A stretch of DNA of 64,000 bases from Mesorhizobium sophorae. Lineage in GTDB: Bacteria > Pseudomonadota > Alphaproteobacteria > Rhizobiales > Rhizobiaceae. Within the stretch, counting starts at the first letter, position 1; each line of letters begins with the position of its first letter. The notes beneath the pieces are model-generated. The model searched no databases and had not been told where the DNA came from. It saw only the letters and a program-made list of their open reading frames with translations. The stretch covers positions 806,001 to 870,000 of the forward strand of contig NZ_NNRI01000022.1 of the NCBI RefSeq assembly GCF_002270415.1, written 5' to 3'. Made by a program: the position numbers and the translations under genes. Positions 26,300 to 34,482 of the stretch are shown here, piece after piece.

Positions 26300-26384
26300 G
26301 CCGCACGAAGAGCACGGCGGTCGCTAACGTGCCCCTCCTTCCGGCAAAAGCATGGATGCCACCCGCCAGCGGTCGCGTCTGACC

Positions 26385-28877
26385 ATGCCAACGCCACCCA
26401 AGCTCAAAGCCTATCGCGCCAAGCGCGAATTCTCGAAAACGCCGGAACCCGCCGGCGGGCTCGTCGCCGGCGAAGGCAACCGCTTCGTCGTCCACAAGCA
26501 TCACGCTACCGCCGATCACTATGATCTGCGCCTGCAGGTCGGCGGCGTGCTGAAGAGCTGGGCGGTGCCGCGCGGGCCTTCGCTCAATCCGGCCGACAAG
26601 CGGCTGGCGGTCGAGACCGAGGATCATCCGCTGGAATACATCGACTTCGAGGGCGTCATTCCCGAAGGCGAATATGGCGGCGGGCCGATGATCGTCTGGG
26701 ACACCGGCAGCTGGGCGCCGATGGACGATGTCGAGAAGAGCCTGCGGACCGGCGCCTTCAAGTTTCGGCTTGCCGGCGAGAAGCTCAATGGCGGCTGGAT
26801 GCTGACCAGGCTCAAACCAAAACCCGGCGAGGACGAGAACAAGAAGAACTGGCTGCTGTTCAAGGAGCGCGACCTTGCCGCCGACACCGCGCTCGACATT
26901 CTGGAAGCGCGGCCGGAAAGCGTGAAGTCCGGCAGGCGCATCGAGGAGTTGGCGGCGCCCGCGAAGCCGGCGGCCAAGCCCGAACAGGGTTCGCTGAAGC
27001 CCGGCACGCTGCCGGGTGCATTCAAGGCCCAGGCACTCAGCCGCATCGAGCCGCAGCTGGCGACGCAGGCGTCAAAGCCGCCCGATGGCGAGGATACCAA
27101 CGAGGTCTGGCTGCACGAGATCAAATTCGACGGCTACCGCACCATGGCGCATCTGAGCGACGGCATGGTCAAGCTGATCACGCGCGGCGGCATCGACTGG
27201 ACGAAGCGCTATGGCGACCTGCCGCATGCCTTCGCCAAACTGCCGTGCCGCGACGCCATCATCGACGGCGAGATCGTCGTGCTCGACGCCAAGGGCATCA
27301 GCCGTTTCGCGCTGTTGCAGGAAGCGCTGGCCGGAGGCGCCGGCAGCAGACTGCATTTCTATGCCTTCGATCTGCTTCATCTCGACGGCTGGGACCTGAC
27401 CAAGGCGCCGCTGGTCCGGCGCAAGGCGCTGCTGGCACAGATGTTGTCCGGCCTCGGCGCCAATTCCGCCATCCAGTTCTCCGACCATGTCGAAGGCTCG
27501 GGCCAGGGACTCTACGACCAGGCGTCTGAACTCGGGCTGGAGGGCGTCGTCTCCAAGCGCGCCACCGCGATCTACCAGAGCGGCCGCACCAAGAGCTGGA
27601 CCAAGACCAAGGCGCTGGCGACCGGCGACTTCGTCATCGCCGGCTACACCACCTCCGCCGCGGCCGAGGGGCTGGCAGCCCTGGGGCTTGCCGAGTTCGA
27701 GGACGGCGAACTGCACTATCGCGGCAAGGTCGGCACCGGCTTCGATACCGGGACCGCCGCCGAATTGCTGGCCAGGCTGGGGCCGCTCACATCAGGCGCG
27801 ACGGCGCCCGAAGGGGTGCCGCGCGAGATCATGCGCGAGATGCACTGGGTGCGTCCGCTGTTTTCGGCGCATATCCACTATGCCAACCGCACCGCGGACA
27901 ATGCGCTGCGCCACGCGGTGTTTCGCGGCTTGAGGGATGTCGGCCTGTCGACGCCAGTGTCGGCCAAGCGCAAGCGGCTGATCTCGGAGGCCGACCTCGC
28001 CACCATCTGGGTGACCAACCCGACGCGGCGGCTGTTCGGCAAGACCGGGCCAACCAAGCTCGACATCGCCGTCTACTACGCGCTGGTCGGCGATTTCATG
28101 CTGCCGCACATTCTGGGACGGCCGGTGTCGCTGGTGCGCTGCCCGACCGGCCTGCCTAAGGACTGCTTCTTCCAGCGCCATGCCTTCACCGGCATGCCGC
28201 CCTCGGTGGTGACCTTCGAGGCAACCAATTCCGAGGGCGAGACAAAGTCCTATCTCTCGGTCGAAGGCGCCAAGGGCTATCTGGCGCTGGCGCAGTTCGG
28301 CGTCGTCGAATTCCACACCTGGGGCACGCATCGCACCAGCCTCGACAAGCCCGACCAGATCGTCTTCGACCTCGACCCGGGCGACGGGATTTCGTGGCGC
28401 GAGGTGGTCGAGGCGGCGGTGCATATCAAGGCTGAGCTCGAGGGGCTGGGGCTGGTGCCCTTCGCCAAGACCTCGGGCGGCAGCGGCATCCACATCACCG
28501 TGCCGGTGACCGGCAAGCAGAACTGGAAGAAACTGCACCAGGCAACCAGCGCGATTTCCACGCATCTGGCGGCAACCGCGCCCGACACCTTCACCACCAC
28601 CATGGGCAAGGACAACCGCAGGAAGCGCATCTTCATCGACTATCACCGCAATGCACGCGGCCACACCTCGGCCGCCCCCTATTCGCTGCGCGCCCGCACC
28701 AACCTGCCGGCCTCGACACCGGTGAGCTGGGCGGATCTGGAGTCGATCGATGCACCGCAGGATTTGAACTATTCTTCGCTGCCGGGGCTCTTGGCGACAT
28801 CCGGCGATCCATGGGCGGAGATCGATGAGTTCGCGCGGGATTTGCCCCTTCAGAAGTTGGGTTCCTCGCGCCCATGA
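26385..28877 (+). CDS. ligD: ATP-dependent DNA ligase D (phosphoesterase-ligase-polymerase)
   Basis: 830-residue multifunctional non-homologous end-joining enzyme. Domain order is 3'-phosphoesterase (about 25-175; HKHHATADHYDLRLQ), ATP-dependent ligase (about 215-400) with adenylated Lys247 in the EIKFDGYR motif, OB fold (about 405-515), and archaeo-eukaryotic primase-like polymerase (about 560-825; VFDLDPGDG near 662, GSGIHITVP). It repairs double-strand breaks with Ku, encoded 200 bases downstream. The ATG at 26385 begins the family-typical lysine-rich start (LKAYRAKREFSKTPEP); ATG 26352 would add 11 residues. Confidence 0.96.
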   Translation: MPTPPKLKAYRAKREFSKTPEPAGGLVAGEGNRFVVHKHHATADHYDLRLQVGGVLKSWAVPRGPSLNPADKRLAVETEDHPLEYIDFEGVIPEGEYGGGPMIVWDTGSWAPMDDVEKSLRTGAFKFRLAGEKLNGGWMLTRLKPKPGEDENKKNWLLFKERDLAADTALDILEARPESVKSGRRIEELAAPAKPAAKPEQGSLKPGTLPGAFKAQALSRIEPQLATQASKPPDGEDTNEVWLHEIKFDGYRTMAHLSDGMVKLITRGGIDWTKRYGDLPHAFAKLPCRDAIIDGEIVVLDAKGISRFALLQEALAGGAGSRLHFYAFDLLHLDGWDLTKAPLVRRKALLAQMLSGLGANSAIQFSDHVEGSGQGLYDQASELGLEGVVSKRATAIYQSGRTKSWTKTKALATGDFVIAGYTTSAAAEGLAALGLAEFEDGELHYRGKVGTGFDTGTAAELLARLGPLTSGATAPEGVPREIMREMHWVRPLFSAHIHYANRTADNALRHAVFRGLRDVGLSTPVSAKRKRLISEADLATIWVTNPTRRLFGKTGPTKLDIAVYYALVGDFMLPHILGRPVSLVRCPTGLPKDCFFQRHAFTGMPPSVVTFEATNSEGETKSYLSVEGAKGYLALAQFGVVEFHTWGTHRTSLDKPDQIVFDLDPGDGISWREVVEAAVHIKAELEGLGLVPFAKTSGGSGIHITVPVTGKQNWKKLHQATSAISTHLAATAPDTFTTTMGKDNRRKRIFIDYHRNARGHTSAAPYSLRARTNLPASTPVSWADLESIDAPQDLNYSSLPGLLATSGDPWAEIDEFARDLPLQKLGSSRP

Positions 28878-28897
28878 AACGGGGCGAGGCACCCAAG

Positions 28898-28986
28898 TCC
28901 ATCGACGGTCCTGACAATTTGAATTATTCTCCGCCCTCGACCCTGTGCCGACCTAAAAGATTTCGTCAGGGATTTGCCTGTATTGT
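28898..28986 (+). pseudogene. Decayed remnant of a second ligD 3' end
   Basis: Just after the ligD stop, the DNA encodes SIDGPDNLNYS, closely matching SIDAPQDLNYS near the LigD C-terminus. After a gap of about 23 bases and a frame change comes DFVRDLPV, matching EFARDLPL from the last LigD residues. Order and spacing follow the ligD tail, with an internal deletion. This is best explained as the eroded end of an older or duplicated ligD copy. Confidence 0.7.
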
Positions 28987-29080
28987 GCGGGGTCGGTGTA
29001 GGATTTCAGTGGCGTCGCTCGTCCTTCGGACGAACAGCGCTGCACCGATGTGACAGTGCATGGCCGCGTAGGAGTGTTTC

Positions 29081-29986
29081 ATGGCGCCCAGGGCAAGTTG
29101 GAAAGGTTACCTCAAGCTCAGCCTCGTCAGCTGTCCGGTGCGGCTATACCCCGCCACCAGCGCGAGCGAACGCATCAGTTTCAACCAGCTGCACAAGAAG
29201 ACCCACAACCGCATCAACATGAAGCCGGTCGATCCCGAACTGGGGCTGGTCGAGCGTTCGGATCTGGTCAAGGGCTACGAATACGAGGACAAGCAGTACA
29301 TCATCATCGATGACGCAGACCTCGACGCGGTGCGCATCGAATCCAACCACACGATGAACATCGAGGCCTTCGTCGACGAGGGCGAGGTCGACGTCATCTA
29401 TCAGGACGCGCCCTACTACATGGCGCCCGACGGCGCGATGGCGGAGGAAACCTTCGCCGTGCTGCGCGAAGCGATGCGCAAATCCGGCAAGCTGGCCATC
29501 GCCCGGCTGGTGCTGTCCAGCCGCGAGCGGGTGGTGACGATCGGTGCGCGCGAGAACGGCATGTTCGTGTGTACGTTGAGAAACCCGAACGAAGTGCGTG
29601 GAACGGCTGAATATTTTGGCAACATTCCAGCCGGCAAGCCCGACGCGGAAATGCTGCAATTGGCCGAAGCGCTCATCAAGCAGAAGGAAACCACCTTCGA
29701 TCCGAAGAATTATGAGGACCGCTATGAGATCGCGCTGATGACGATGATCCGCGAGAAGCTGAAGGGCCACAAGCCAATCATCGCGGCGGCCCCCGAACGC
29801 GGCAATGTCATCAATCTGATGGATGCGCTGAAGGCCAGCCTGTCGCAATCGAAGCCGCCGGCCAAGTCGAAAAGCAAGGCCGACGAGGTCGCCAAGCCCG
29901 CGACCAAGAAGGCGGCAGCGGGCGGCGCTGTTGAAAATCCGCTGAAGGCCAATCTGCTGAAGGCGGTCGGCAAGAGCAAGAAATGA
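29081..29986 (+). CDS. ku: Ku protein, non-homologous end joining
   Basis: 301-residue bacterial Ku that would form a homodimeric ring on DNA ends and recruit LigD. The core (SWKGYLKLSLVSCPVRLYPA, KGYEYEDKQYIIIDDADLD, LARLVLSSRERVVTI-like strand) spans residues 5-250. The C-terminal 50 residues are rich in lysine and alanine, as in other bacterial Ku tails that bind DNA and LigD. The ATG at 29081 follows a GGAG. The stop overlaps the next gene by 4 bases. Confidence 0.96.
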   Translation: MAPRASWKGYLKLSLVSCPVRLYPATSASERISFNQLHKKTHNRINMKPVDPELGLVERSDLVKGYEYEDKQYIIIDDADLDAVRIESNHTMNIEAFVDEGEVDVIYQDAPYYMAPDGAMAEETFAVLREAMRKSGKLAIARLVLSSRERVVTIGARENGMFVCTLRNPNEVRGTAEYFGNIPAGKPDAEMLQLAEALIKQKETTFDPKNYEDRYEIALMTMIREKLKGHKPIIAAAPERGNVINLMDALKASLSQSKPPAKSKSKADEVAKPATKKAAAGGAVENPLKANLLKAVGKSKK

Positions 29987-31110
29987 CGGCACAAGCCGTC
30001 CTGGTCCCGGGGGCCGTCTTCGGCGCGATCGGCGCGCTGGCGGCGTTTCCGCTCAGGCTCGCGGCACGCGAGGTCGAGCGCCAGCACGGCCAGTTGCGGC
30101 GCGGCGTCACCAGGCGCACCACGCATGTCGTGTTCGGCCGCTCCGTGCTGGCCAGGGCCGGGCTTGCCAAGAACGGCGACGCCGAGATCGAGCGCCGCGT
30201 CGCTGCCGAGCGCATGGCCGGCCGTGTTCTGATCAGCGAGAATGGTTTCTTGCGCATGCTCGGGCTGATGAAGGCGCCGGAGGCGTCCTCGCTGTCGAGG
30301 CAATCGCTGATCGAACAGTCGCGGCTGCCAGGCGCCGACCTTGACCTGTTGTCGCTGTTCGATGCCTTCGAACATGACGGCGAACCCTATTCCTTCCGCG
30401 ACCTGATCCTGGCCCGCAAATATGCCGGGCTGGTGGCCGGCGGGGCGACGTGGGGCGCGATCGCGCGTTCCGTCCATCGCTCCGGGCCGGTGGCTTCGCT
30501 GACCGCCAAGTCGCTCAATGTCGGCTCGCAGCATGGGCGGCCCGACGCAATCTATCTCGAGGGCGGCCAGAGCGAGCTCGACGGGCAATTGCTGTTCGAT
30601 CTGGGCACCGCCGGTTCAGCTGGCGACGACACGCTGGAAGAGCTGTTCGAGGAGGCCGAAGCGGCTGAGGAGGGCGGCGACCATGACGGGGCAGCCGCGC
30701 TCTACCAGCGCTGTCTGGCCATCGACCCGGGCGATGCCTTTGCCGCCTTCAACCGCGCCAACTGCCTGCGCGCCGGCGGCCACGCGAGGGACGCCGCGCA
30801 CGATTATGCCCGTGCGATAAAGCTCGACCCGGTCTTCGTCGAGGCATGGTTCAATCTGGCAGGGCTGATGAGCGAGCAAGGCCGCGAAGCCTCGGCGCGA
30901 AGGCATCTGCAGAAGGCCATCGCGCTAGACAAGACCTATGCCGATCCGGTGTTCAACCTCGCCCGGCTGGAATTCGACGCCGGCAATTTGCCGGAGGCGC
31001 GCCGCAACTGGGCGCGCTATCTCGAACTGGATAGCGATTCCGAATGGGCGCGGGTTGCGGCCAAGGGGGTGCAGTTCGTGGATATGCAACTGGCGCGGAC
31101 GGCTGGGTGA
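29983..31110 (+). CDS. BRCT-like / MerR-like HTH / TPR protein coupled to Ku
   Basis: 375 residues. Residues 1-100 have a BRCT-like pattern (GAVFGAIGALAAFPL, RRTTHVVFGRSVL, then VLISENGFLRMLG). Residues 125-165 (YSFRDLILARKYAGLVAGGA) resemble the MerR-type winged HTH. From about 205 onwards are four TPR-like repeats ending in ARYLELDSDSEWA. It overlaps ku by 4 bases (ATGA), so both are translated together. A cytosolic scaffold or regulator of end joining is the reasonable inference; the domain assignments are by eye. Similar proteins are, as I recall, usually named only tetratricopeptide repeat protein. Confidence 0.85.
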   Translation: MTAQAVLVPGAVFGAIGALAAFPLRLAAREVERQHGQLRRGVTRRTTHVVFGRSVLARAGLAKNGDAEIERRVAAERMAGRVLISENGFLRMLGLMKAPEASSLSRQSLIEQSRLPGADLDLLSLFDAFEHDGEPYSFRDLILARKYAGLVAGGATWGAIARSVHRSGPVASLTAKSLNVGSQHGRPDAIYLEGGQSELDGQLLFDLGTAGSAGDDTLEELFEEAEAAEEGGDHDGAAALYQRCLAIDPGDAFAAFNRANCLRAGGHARDAAHDYARAIKLDPVFVEAWFNLAGLMSEQGREASARRHLQKAIALDKTYADPVFNLARLEFDAGNLPEARRNWARYLELDSDSEWARVAAKGVQFVDMQLARTAG

Positions 31111-31134
31111 GGGGATTGATGCTGGCGCTTGAAC

Positions 31135-31289
31135 ACCCCCCTCTGTCCTGCCGGACATCTCCCCCGCAAGGGGGGAGATTGGATGTCGCCACCGCTTTCC
31201 CCAATCGCCAACGTTGGACATTGAGCGGAACGTCAAAGCTGCCGATCTCCCCCCTTGCGGGGGAGATGTCCGGCAGGACAGAGGGGGGT
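31135..31289. repeat. Perfect 45-bp inverted repeat with 65-base loop
   Basis: The 45 bases at 31135-31179 recur exactly as reverse complement at 31245-31289. Each arm itself contains a smaller hairpin (ATCTCCCCC, GCAA, GGGGGGAGAT). I recall this CTGTCCTGCCGGACATCTC-type element as a dispersed intergenic repeat in Mesorhizobium. It sits between the Ku-partner gene and the hydrolase gene, so it could act as a terminator or RNA-stabilising structure. Confidence 0.9.
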
Positions 31290-31324
31290 TGGACGGAACA
31301 CGACCTCTCGGGGAAGGCCGCCCT

Positions 31325-31969
31325 ATGACCACCTTCCTCTTCGACGGCCCCGAGACCGCCCCCGTCGCCATCCTGCTCGCGCATGGCGCCGGCGCGTCGA
31401 TGGATTCTCCCTCGATGACGGCCACCGCCAAGTCGCTGGCGGCGACTGGCTTCCAGGTCGCGCGCTTCGAATTCCACTACATGGCAGCCCGCCGCTACGG
31501 GCATCGCAAGCCGCCGCCGCGGGCCGAGACGGTGAACCCGGAATATGTCAAGGCGATCGCCGACCTCAGGACGAAGGGCGTAACCGGCCCACTCATCATC
31601 GGCGGCAAGTCGATGGGCGGGCGCGTCGCCTCGATGGTCGCCGACGAGATGTTTGCCAAGGGCGAGATATCGGGCCTGCTGTGCCTCGGCTATCCCTTTC
31701 ATCCGCCGGCCAAGCCCGAGCAATTGCGGACCAAACATCTCGCCAACCTGAAGACGCCGACGCTGATCTTCCAGGGCACACGTGACGAGTTCGGGACGCA
31801 GGACGAGGTCGCGACTTACGCGCTTTCCGACCAGATCGAAATCGTTTGGCTGGAGGATGGCGACCATGATCTCAAACCGCGCAAGAGCGTTTCAGGATTT
31901 TCGGCGGCCGAACACTTGAAGACGCTGGCCGAGGCTGTGAAGGCGTGGACGGGCCGGATCGTTTCCTGA
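31325..31969 (+). CDS. Alpha/beta hydrolase (KANL3/Tex30-like)
   Basis: 214-residue serine hydrolase. The nucleophile elbow is GGKSMGG (Ser96), the acid is Asp154 in GTRDEFG and the base His181 in DGDHDLKPRK; the oxyanion region is LLAHGAGASMDSP. This is the small alpha/beta hydrolase family related to Tex30 and dienelactone hydrolases; its substrate is unknown. The cytosolic protein starts at the ATG at 31325, shortly after the inverted repeat, and is followed after 4 bases by exonuclease III. Confidence 0.87.
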   Translation: MTTFLFDGPETAPVAILLAHGAGASMDSPSMTATAKSLAATGFQVARFEFHYMAARRYGHRKPPPRAETVNPEYVKAIADLRTKGVTGPLIIGGKSMGGRVASMVADEMFAKGEISGLLCLGYPFHPPAKPEQLRTKHLANLKTPTLIFQGTRDEFGTQDEVATYALSDQIEIVWLEDGDHDLKPRKSVSGFSAAEHLKTLAEAVKAWTGRIVS

Positions 31970-31973
31970 GCCG

Positions 31974-32750
31974 ATGAAAATCGCCTCCTTCAACATCAAC
32001 AACGTCAACAGCCGGCTGGAGAACCTGCTGGCATGGCTGGCGACGGCAAAGCCTGATGTCGTGTGCCTGCAGGAACTGAAGGCGCGCGACACGCAGTTTC
32101 CGCGTTCGGCATTGGCCGCGGCCGGCTATGGCGCGGTGTGGAAGGGCGAGCCGACCTGGAACGGCGTCGCCTTACTGGCGCGGGCCTCGGAACCGGTGCT
32201 GACCCGCGATGCCTTGCCGGGCGACGATGCCGACAAGCAGAGCCGCTACATCGAGGCGGCGGTGGACGGCATCGTCATCGCTTGCCTTTATGCGCCGAAC
32301 GGCAACCCTCAGCCCGGCCCGAAATTCGCCTACAAGCTCGCCTGGCATGAACGGCTGGAGGCACACGCCGAGCAGCTGTTGGACACCGGCCTACCGGTGG
32401 TGCTGGCCGGCGACTACAACATCGTGCCCGAGCCGCGCGACATCTACGCCACCCGCTCCTATGACGACAACGCGCTGGTGCAGCCGGAAAGCCGGGCGTC
32501 CTTCGCCCGCCTGATCGAGCAGGGCTGGACGGATGCCCTGCGCAAGAAGCACCCGAAGGAGACGCTCTATACGTTCTGGGATTATCGCCGAAACCGCTGG
32601 CCGCGCGACGCGGGGCTCAGGCTCGACCATATCCTGCTGTCGAAGACACTGTCGCGCCGTCTCACCGCCGCCGGGATCGACCGCGAGGTGCGCGGGCAAG
32701 ACGGCGCCAGCGACCATGCGCCGGTCTGGGTGGAGCTCAGGTCAGCTTGA
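31974..32750 (+). CDS. xth: Exodeoxyribonuclease III / AP endonuclease
   Basis: 258 residues. It cuts at abasic sites and removes 3' blocking groups in base excision repair. Family signatures: MKIASFNINNVNSRL, the metal-binding Glu34 in CLQELKA, the GDYNIVPEPRDIY loop, RLDHILLS and the catalytic SDHAPVWVEL at the C-terminus. It is four bases downstream of the hydrolase gene, so the two form an operon. Together with ligD and ku it makes this region a DNA repair neighbourhood. Confidence 0.95.
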   Translation: MKIASFNINNVNSRLENLLAWLATAKPDVVCLQELKARDTQFPRSALAAAGYGAVWKGEPTWNGVALLARASEPVLTRDALPGDDADKQSRYIEAAVDGIVIACLYAPNGNPQPGPKFAYKLAWHERLEAHAEQLLDTGLPVVLAGDYNIVPEPRDIYATRSYDDNALVQPESRASFARLIEQGWTDALRKKHPKETLYTFWDYRRNRWPRDAGLRLDHILLSKTLSRRLTAAGIDREVRGQDGASDHAPVWVELRSA

Positions 32751-32871
32751 TGGGAACCTCGACGCCGCCGCTTTCGCATGCGCCATTTTGCGAACACCTT
32801 TTCCACTGGTAATCTCGTGAACTGAACTTTGCGGCGTGGGGCGAAGCCTGCGATGGCGCCGAGGGGGGCCG

Positions 32872-34482
32872 ATGAACAGAGTCGTCGACAGGCTGATTGC
32901 AATCATCCTGCTGGTGGTGGCCGTGGCTTGCGTCTGGCGCGCCTGGCTGGTGCTTGGCGATGCAGTCGTCGTCTGGCGCGGTGTCTCGCCTTCCGCCGAG
33001 GCTTCCGCCTCCATCCGGTTGGCCGCATTGGTGGTGGCGGCACTCGCTTGCCTGATTGGCGCTCTGCTGTTCTGGGCAGGTCGTCTGCCGGGGCGCCCGA
33101 ACCATCAGGCCGGCGCGCCGCTGTTCGGCCGTGCGGCGGAAGTGCAAGACACCGGCAGGCCCGGCCTGCGCAAGGTGTTTCTCGCCCTGCCATTGGTTGT
33201 GCTTGCGGTGCTGGCCGTCGACCGGTTCGGCCCCTGGCATGATCGCGGTGGCGAAATTGCCAGCCAGCCCGGCGAACCCAAGCCCAACGAACCCAAGCAG
33301 AATGAACCCAAGCCTGCCGAGCCGAAGGGGCAGGACGTCGCCAGTGCGCCGCCGGTCCAGGAACCGGCAGTTCCACCGGCAGCCACGCCGCCGGCGCCAT
33401 CTCCGCCCGCCCCACCACCGGAAGCGGTCAACCCGCCCGCGGCCCTAGAGCCGCTGACTCCGCCCGCGCTCGCGCCGCCAACGCCGCCTACGCCCGTTCC
33501 GGCACCGCCGGAGGTCGCTGTGATCCCGCCACCGACCGTCGCGCCTCTGCCCCCACCTCCGCCACCGCTGCCGACCGAGCCCGAGGGTCATCGCGACGCT
33601 GTCGTCTGGCTGGCCGTGGCGACCGACGGGCACTCGATCATGAGCGCTTCCACCGACCACACGATCAAGCTCTGGGACATCGCCGGCAAGCATCTGATCC
33701 GCACCCTCGGCGCCCACAAGGATATGGTGCGCACGGCGCTGTTCATGCCCGATGGCGTCAGCGCGCTGACCGCCGGCGACGACGGCGAGATGGTGCAGCG
33801 GAAACTTTCCGACGGCGCTGTGCTGCATGTCTTTTCGGCGGGCGAGAATGGCGGTGTGAACAAGCTGGCGATCAGCCCGGACGGCAAGCGTGCCGTGACC
33901 GGCCACGAGACCGGCAACGTCATCGTCTGGGACCTAGAAAAGGGCACCGTGCTGCATGTGATGAGCGGGCACGACTGGTCGGTCAGCGCTGTCGCCGTCT
34001 CGCCCGACGGCACTCGCGCCGTCTCGGGCAGCATCGATGGCACTCTCAAACTCTGGGACATCGACAGCGGCAAGCAGCTGCGCAGCTGGCATGGGCATGA
34101 GCATGGCACCTATGGCGCCGTGTTCACCGCCGACGGCCATCATCTAATCACCGGCAGCGGCGACTACACGATCAAGCTCTGGGACCTCGACAGCGGCCGC
34201 GAAGTGCGCCGCTTCGATGGCCATGAGGGCACCGTCTACACGTTGGCGCTGTCGGCCGACGGCAAGCGCCTGGTCTCCGGTTCGCTCGACGGCACGGCGC
34301 GCCTGTGGGACATGGAAACCGGCAATCAGGTCGCCATGTTCGACAGCCAGAGCGGCCCGATCTATGCGGTGGCCTTCGCCGCCGACGGCACGGTGCTGAC
34401 CGGCGGCTACGACCGTACCATCCGCGACTGGCCGGCCGCAGGCGGCGACGGCGTGGTGCTGTTTGCAGGGGCGCCGGGGTGA
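32872..34482 (+). CDS. Membrane-anchored seven-repeat WD40 protein
   Basis: 536 residues. Three hydrophobic helices lie in the first 130 residues (LIAIILLVVAVACVWRAWLV; LVVAALACLIGALLFW; LPLVVLAVLAVDRF). A Pro/Glu/Lys-rich linker (NEPKQNEPKPAEPK, then Pro-Ala-rich) follows to about 240. Seven WD40 repeats (GHRDAVVWLAVATDGH to the last TIRDWPA) should close a single propeller, which after three helices would lie outside the cytosol if the N-terminus is inside. Such propellers are protein-interaction platforms; the partner is unknown. The ATG at 32872 follows GAGGGGGG. Confidence 0.9.
   Translation: MNRVVDRLIAIILLVVAVACVWRAWLVLGDAVVVWRGVSPSAEASASIRLAALVVAALACLIGALLFWAGRLPGRPNHQAGAPLFGRAAEVQDTGRPGLRKVFLALPLVVLAVLAVDRFGPWHDRGGEIASQPGEPKPNEPKQNEPKPAEPKGQDVASAPPVQEPAVPPAATPPAPSPPAPPPEAVNPPAALEPLTPPALAPPTPPTPVPAPPEVAVIPPPTVAPLPPPPPPLPTEPEGHRDAVVWLAVATDGHSIMSASTDHTIKLWDIAGKHLIRTLGAHKDMVRTALFMPDGVSALTAGDDGEMVQRKLSDGAVLHVFSAGENGGVNKLAISPDGKRAVTGHETGNVIVWDLEKGTVLHVMSGHDWSVSAVAVSPDGTRAVSGSIDGTLKLWDIDSGKQLRSWHGHEHGTYGAVFTADGHHLITGSGDYTIKLWDLDSGREVRRFDGHEGTVYTLALSADGKRLVSGSLDGTARLWDMETGNQVAMFDSQSGPIYAVAFAADGTVLTGGYDRTIRDWPAAGGDGVVLFAGAPG

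Follow-up and report, generated by a model that had tools for sequence, protein, structure and literature searches.

Directly downstream of ku, the window (the whole 64,000-nucleotide stretch of Mesorhizobium sophorae DNA analysed here) carries a gene for a 375-residue protein with BRCT-like, MerR-like HTH and TPR parts, which we call the partner. It is probably a dedicated NHEJ accessory protein of certain bacterial Ku lineages that acts at DNA ends; this function is an inference that rests only on genomics. Bacterial NHEJ is commonly presented as a matter of Ku and LigD, as the first-pass annotation had it and as the available portion of PMC1378119 bears out, with further proteins involved only under certain circumstances (PMC9638933, available in part). 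The locus contains the following features.

26352-28877, + strand: ligD, DNA ligase D (3'-phosphoesterase, ligase, primase-polymerase; Pfam PF13298, PF01068, PF04679, PF21686)
29081-29986, + strand: ku (PF02735, E 4e-44)
29852-29872, + strand: KPPAKSK motif in the C-terminal tail of Ku (Ku residues 258-264), a candidate docking peptide (motif counts)
29983-29986, + strand: ATGA, the partner start overlapping the ku stop by four bases
29983-31110, + strand: Ku-coupled BRCT / MerR-like HTH / TPR protein of 375 aa, the partner
30004-30276, + strand: BRCT-like domain, partner residues 8-98 (PDB profile matches to LigA/RFC1; predicted strand/helix order)
30292-30486, + strand: MerR-like winged HTH, partner residues 104-168 (predicted helices; hhalign to the sister family)
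30574-30606, + strand: conserved linker motif ELDGQLLFDLG, partner residues 198-208 (alignments)
30631-31101, + strand: TPR superhelix, partner residues 217-373 (Pfam TPR, Foldseek, VIA-align)
31325-31969, + strand: alpha/beta hydrolase, downstream of the partner (PF20408, E 5.3e-70)
31974-32750, + strand: xth, exonuclease III-like (PF03372, E 1e-31; the gene at the same place is annotated xth in L099)

The partner reading frame begins within the stop codon of ku, and the four-base overlap reported in the first-pass annotation is therefore real. The protein is single-copy in its own genome; 12 other matches, taken at E values up to 1, begin no earlier than residue 207, within the TPR part. The nearest named relatives of the locus belong to Mesorhizobium. 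Of 67 named loci that extend far enough, 64 have the hydrolase downstream of the partner and 64 have xth there. The five genes from ligD through ku, partner and hydrolase to xth may form one unit; what the hydrolase would do in repair is unexplained.

Alignment of the ligD-ku gap (28878-29080) with 21 relatives revealed that Mesorhizobium keeps AATTTGAATTATTC and ATTTCGTCAGGGATTTGCC, which look like what is left of a ligD 3' end, and that a short hairpin (TCGTCC-TTC-GGACGA) stands ahead of ku in most Mesorhizobium rows. In L064 the letters of the stem differ and pairing looks largely retained; the hairpin is possibly a leader or attenuator of ku. The window has no GGAAC-type -35 pattern ahead of either ligD or ku; among 27 of 66 loci listed, three show one ahead of ku and none ahead of ligD. 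Between the partner and the hydrolase lie two copies of a CCCCCTCTGTCCTGCCGGACATCTCCCCC-type repeat in opposite orientations (31134-31180 and 31244-31292). Downstream of xth lies a large open reading frame (32836-34482, + strand) with a stretch rich in proline and repeats that, judged by eye, are WD-like.

The C-terminal part of the partner meets the definition of TPR repeats, tandem 34-residue helix pairs, by Pfam, by model and by Foldseek, as had been proposed. Many Pfam TPR models scored above cut-off, the best stretches falling within residues 220-361, and the TPR part matched 2fo7 both in Foldseek (E 7.6e-9) and in VIA-align (Z 19.9, rmsd 1.2, 136 aligned). The AlphaFold model was built from a 31-row alignment (mean pLDDT 74.5, pTM 0.47); single-sequence structure prediction was poor (pLDDT 46.6). 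When the full model was used for structure searches, all of the 50 matches listed by Foldseek and of the 50 listed by VIA-align fell on the TPR part.

The first 216 residues of the window protein had no Pfam match. A profile of residues 8-98 (22 rows) matched solved BRCT domains among PDB sequences, those of LigA (9vse, 3.3e-6), RFC1 (2ebu, 3.7e-6) and DNA ligase (2owo, 8.7e-6), and single members matched the Pfam models weakly (PTCB-BRCT in 3/16 members, best 9e-4; BRCT in 4/22, best 0.0015). In the AlphaFold model the order over residues 12-92 is strand-helix-strand-strand-helix-strand-helix (E12-16, H24-33, E37-40, E48-51, H54-59/H65-78, E82-84, H86-92; block pLDDT 64-86). Comparison by hhalign with 22 bacterial BRCT stretches taken as LigA gave 98.3%, the HTH-part control giving 0.2%; with the unsorted 29 rows, four of them not BRCT, the values were 97.3% and 0.1%. 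Because the LigA-type rows had been found with a related profile, the PDB search serves as the independent test. The BRCT-like N terminus of the first-pass annotation is supported by this search (E about 4e-6 for LigA/RFC1) and by the topology. A prediction without a BRCT or HTH fold, which would have spoken against that annotation, was not obtained, and the model displays both element orders.

The canonical BRCT phosphate pocket has a Ser/Thr, and not every BRCT has one; the Thr before the invariant Gly and the GSK stretch have a role in phosphate binding. This Thr was found in 25/25 other bacterial BRCT stretches, whereas the residue before the Gly was V, I, L or Y in 22/22 partner rows, S/T in 0/22, and no clear equivalent of the GSK stretch was seen. 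The consistent absence of the pocket Ser/Thr makes classical phosphate reading by the partner unlikely and, judging from these residues, we do not claim its BRCT as the phosphate-reading type.

For the HTH, the model predicts helices at residues 106-113, 117-125, 138-152 and 157-165, with a wing. None of the scanned members of the window's own family (the alpha form; 16 scanned in one set) matched MerR_1 directly. Of the two proteins scanned from a BRCT-less sister family (the beta form, described below), one matched MerR_1 (PF13411) at 8.3e-10 and the other lay exactly at the cut-off. Aligning the two families by hhalign over the HTH, the linker and the GQLLFDL motif gave 97.5%, and the ELDGQLLFDLG linker motif is akin to SGQLLLDF in the sister family. 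The window-family segment thus looks like a MerR-type winged HTH only indirectly, through the sister alignment and the model helices. The MerR-like HTH of the first-pass annotation stands on this footing, but its start is near residue 104, not 110.

Searching PDB with the HTH and linker gave aminopeptidase P as best profile match (0.06), which was judged chance and rejected as a relative; with the whole sister profile, all of the 60 matches listed covered the TPR part. Pfam, NCBIfam and PADLOC returned TPR and nothing else useful for the whole window protein. Scans of the sister family brought up MerR_1 in Pfam, a weak mad1 match across the HTH in PADLOC (4.5e-5) and nothing at cut-off in NCBIfam. 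No curated family seen in these three collections names the BRCT/HTH/TPR architecture. Partner and sister genes are annotated as 'tetratricopeptide repeat protein', 'TPR repeat-containing protein' or, once, 'MerR family transcriptional regulator', so that the first-pass statement that similar genes are named only as TPR proteins holds for the annotations examined, with that one exception.

Many soil bacteria carry the partner gene, and it was consistently found with ku. In 297 genomes of the window's order, a single-protein query matched the partner in 16, including the window's, and it lay directly 3' of ku in 16/16. ku was present in 121 of the 297, 105 of these having no match to the query, and partner occurrence was accordingly 16/121 in ku-positive against 0/176 in ku-negative genomes (Fisher p 3e-7). 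In this sample the partner is optional for ku and ku is not optional for the partner. Named genomes yielded 73 loci, one of which (L097) is a TPR match; in the remaining 72, ku was adjacent in 71, the exception (L083) being cut by a contig end. A gene mostly away from ku in relatives would have refuted the first-pass annotation, and these counts (16/16 and 71/72) show the opposite. The named loci are mostly from Mesorhizobium, with three from Sinorhizobium and one from Devosia. Partner-linked ku loci occur in Sinorhizobium meliloti (L087, L098), a species for which end-joining assays have been reported and sku2 is given as the more relevant ku copy (PMC10932983, in the portion available).

In the class sample 23/289 genomes matched: the window's own locus, L101-L109 (HTH present), L110 and L124 adjoin ku, the L124 partner being cut after 31 residues by a contig end, while L111-L123 (E 3e-8 to 6e-4) show similarity in the BRCT part alone and lack ku within flanks of about 1.5 kb. 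At L110 (1460-2143, + strand) a 228-aa open frame beside ku encodes a BRCT-TPR version without HTH; an assembly error is not excluded. In the phylum sample 41/398 genomes matched, of which 10 lay beside ku (nine from the window's genus, its own included, and one from its family) and overlap the order sample. Of the other 31, weak matches, 20 were inspected (L134-L153, E 2e-6 and worse); these cover the BRCT part and none is beside ku. Most of the L111-L123 and L134-L153 matches lie in long reading frames taken as LigA without a family search.

By profile, the partner was absent from 30 fetched unlinked alpha ku loci, which were the highest-scoring ku matches and not a random draw. The alpha form also matched 87 plasmid records, two of which (H12, H19) were inspected. 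In viral contigs and phages no HTH-bearing homologue was found, and two TPR-part matches (L265, L266) had no ku in the sequence examined. The samples comprise Pseudomonadota only, and loci from genome searches extend about 1.5 kb to each side. These searches scored limited candidates per genome and could miss distant copies away from ku. Similar MerR-TPR proteins may also occur in Myxococcota and Acidobacteriota.

The sister family came from a search with the HTH and linker profile, which matched 10/299 genomes: nine of the window's genus, and G787, of the same phylum and, as far as kinship shows, a different class. Its two loci encode HTH-TPR proteins of about 270 aa without BRCT, directly 3' of ku. 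tblastn detected 33 plasmid records in Cupriavidus, Paraburkholderia, Caballeronia, Variovorax and Burkholderia, and since these genera hold the plasmid matches we take G787 and its order as Burkholderiales. ku was immediately upstream of the sister gene in 10/10 plasmid records inspected. In the order of G787, 11/140 genomes carry 12 HTH-bearing loci, 12/12 of them beside ku. ku occurs in 24/140 genomes, 13/24 of them without a sister partner; the latter was thus present in 11/24 ku-positive and 0/116 ku-negative genomes (Fisher p 4e-10).

At a threshold of 1e-20, 33/140 genomes of this order matched, 11 holding the HTH-bearing loci and 22 not, and 19 inspected matches from those 22 (L216-L234) had neither HTH nor ku. 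One of them, L216 (5e-38, internal stop), is TPR sequence from a genome that lacks ku; it is perhaps a remnant and is the nearest thing to a counter-example of the linkage. In the class of G787, 5/124 genomes matched, the seed included, with three unsplit genes beside ku; a further gene is broken across two contigs, and its HTH half adjoins ku. The family therefore extends beyond Hyphomicrobiales, and BRCT is an optional N-terminal part. By these counts the partner shows the genetic association with ku/ligD expected of an NHEJ factor.

The association is tightest with ku itself. Among 90 partner loci with a ku match, 73 keep the four-base overlap (34 ATGA, 39 GTGA), and in the remaining 17 the spacing runs from an overlap of 1 base to a gap of 97. 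This count includes many Mesorhizobium and one gene counted twice (L001 and L009), and start sites were chosen by closeness to the window's start. The position of ligD is less constant. L105, L193 and L202 have the order ku, partner, ligD; at sister loci ligD lies before, after or on the opposite strand while the partner stays 3' of ku; and in L200 and L201 no ligD was found within the 8.3-kb stretch around ku and partner. Given these two loci and the variable position elsewhere, the fixed tie is to ku.

Linked Ku proteins also cluster. In a 96-protein Ku tree (quick method, LG+G4), one branch separates the 22 linked beta Ku from the rest (support 83), a single group holds 24/27 linked alpha Ku (support 86), and the linked/unlinked label shows four changes. 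Several genomes (G787, G928, G930, G955, G972, G202) have unlinked Ku paralogues as well. Ku tails are basic, of low complexity and rich in Lys/Pro/Ala, the first two properties being shared by linked and unlinked proteins alike. The motif KP[PA]A[KRQEP][SG] was present in 20/27 linked alpha tails vs 1/30 unlinked, shuffles of the linked tails giving a mean of 0.1 and a maximum of 2. It was missing in L024, L104 and L105, outside the main clade, in L107-L110, inside it, and in all beta tails (0/22). Because the motif tracks a Ku clade and is absent outside it, shared descent is not excluded.

The charge of the partner follows its architecture. Net charge of the alpha BRCT was +3 to +10 (mean +7.5), as compared to a mean of +0.5 for 25 other bacterial BRCT stretches. 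The alpha HTH was acidic (-7 to +2, mean -2.0), with the wing EHDGEPY in the window's family, whereas the HTH of 12 aligned sister proteins carried +4 to +12 (mean +8.3). The TPR part averaged about -10 in both forms. Positive charge is therefore placed on BRCT where present and on HTH where BRCT is absent. The acidic character of the window HTH makes DNA binding by it doubtful. Classical reading of phosphorylated ends, given the missing pocket residue, is likewise doubtful, which refines the first-pass suggestion that the protein could read protein or DNA ends.

In the mechanism that we hold most probable, the partner, made by translational coupling with Ku, would use its acidic TPR superhelix to grip the basic C-terminal tail of Ku. 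Its basic N-terminal module, BRCT in Alphaproteobacteria and the MerR-like HTH in the sister family, would touch DNA near the end, and the partner might then stabilise synapsis or the complex of Ku with DNA, or else gate LigD. That the partner binds Ku, contacts DNA or affects joining is inference, with no experiment and no predicted complex behind it. Counting against an accessory role, most ku-positive genomes sampled lack the partner, and operon partners can be co-regulated without touching. In addition, the reported partners of the C-terminal arm of M. tuberculosis Ku are DNA and LigD (PMC9638933, in its available part); the tail may therefore have other partners, which could leave no room for the TPR.

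An unlikely alternative, yet the strongest of three, is that the protein is a MerR-like regulator of the ku/ligD cluster, its HTH on the ku or ligD promoter and its TPR (and BRCT) sensing damage or a partner. Autoregulators often lie in the operon under their control, both scanned sisters reach MerR_1, the HTH is strongly basic in the 12 aligned sisters, and the annotation of one sister calls it a MerR family regulator. The window family fits this poorly, however, with its mean HTH charge of -2 and acidic wing. Upstream of ku, 22 aligned sequences showed no evident MerR-type operator (a weak test), and the clearest conserved dyad there is a short-loop hairpin. Moreover, the partner keeps its place 3' of ku while ligD moves, and L110, subject to the assembly caveat, has apparently lost the HTH and is still beside ku.

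Less probable again is that the protein has no action at the DNA end and, as a TPR scaffold or chaperone, folds Ku, stabilises it or titrates its tail. The acidic TPR facing a basic Lys/Pro/Ala-rich tail would suit such a protein, as would translational coupling, which suits obligate partners, but the conserved basic BRCT or HTH module and the placement of charge on one or the other would be left unexplained. We regard it as very improbable that ku, ligD and the partner merely spread jointly on plasmids or megaplasmids with no functional tie. Plasmid records are indeed frequent (87 for the alpha and 33 for the beta form), but co-transport does not account for immediate 3' adjacency in two groups of Proteobacteria, for the four-base overlap in 73/90 loci, for a ku-partner arrangement that does not vary while the order and distance of ligD do, or for the clustering of linked Ku on the tree. 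An NHEJ accessory protein acting with Ku at the DNA end remains our preferred reading.

The partner resembles several known proteins in part. With the BRCT of LigA and RFC1 it shares the sequence profile, the hhalign match (98.3%, LigA-type) and the order of strands and helices; unlike them it has no enzyme attached and is strongly basic (+7.5 vs +0.5). MerR family proteins have a dimerising coiled coil and an effector domain C-terminal to the HTH, and their operator lies in a long-spacer promoter. The likeness to MerR_1 (PF13411) consists of helices with a wing in the model, sisters at the Pfam cut-off and the hhalign value of 97.5%, but the window version is acidic and no promoter site has been shown. 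We do not file the partner as a classical MerR regulator because a linker and then TPR replace the coiled coil and effector domain. Lig4, Pol lambda/mu and TdT are eukaryotic NHEJ proteins with BRCT that work with Ku. The parallel is one of kind, BRCT with Ku; in contrast to them, the best profile matches of the partner are LigA and RFC1 and it has no catalytic domain, and the two are likely of independent origin. We know of no link between Sir2 and the partner gene family. Mycobacterial Sir2, a different protein by name, has been reported as an extra participant in bacterial NHEJ (PMC3102665, in the part available).

No description of the partner gene was found in the open-access literature searched; subscription papers were not covered. 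A survey of bacterial NHEJ that deals with ku-ligD proximity contains neither 'BRCT' nor 'TPR' in its available text (PMC7719229), the text of PMC8656161 contains neither 'accessory' nor 'operon', and the accessible portion of PMC5124664 has nothing on the gene.

We tentatively suggest, at somewhat less than even confidence, that a large proteobacterial branch of NHEJ is three-part, comprising Ku, LigD and an adaptor that binds the Ku tail and carries an exchangeable head for contacting DNA (BRCT or MerR-type HTH), a counterpart in kind to the eukaryotic BRCT/scaffold factors. If the accessory role is true, a third gene, translationally coupled to ku and conserved across two proteobacterial groups, would alter the list of NHEJ parts, would raise the question of why a partner accompanies some Ku paralogues of a genome and not others, and would offer a simple model for a BRCT-type module joining a Ku complex. 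The partner may also be relevant where Ku and LigD serve as genome-editing tools, and it could be a third player, so far overlooked, in a break-repair pathway that is generally described in terms of two proteins.
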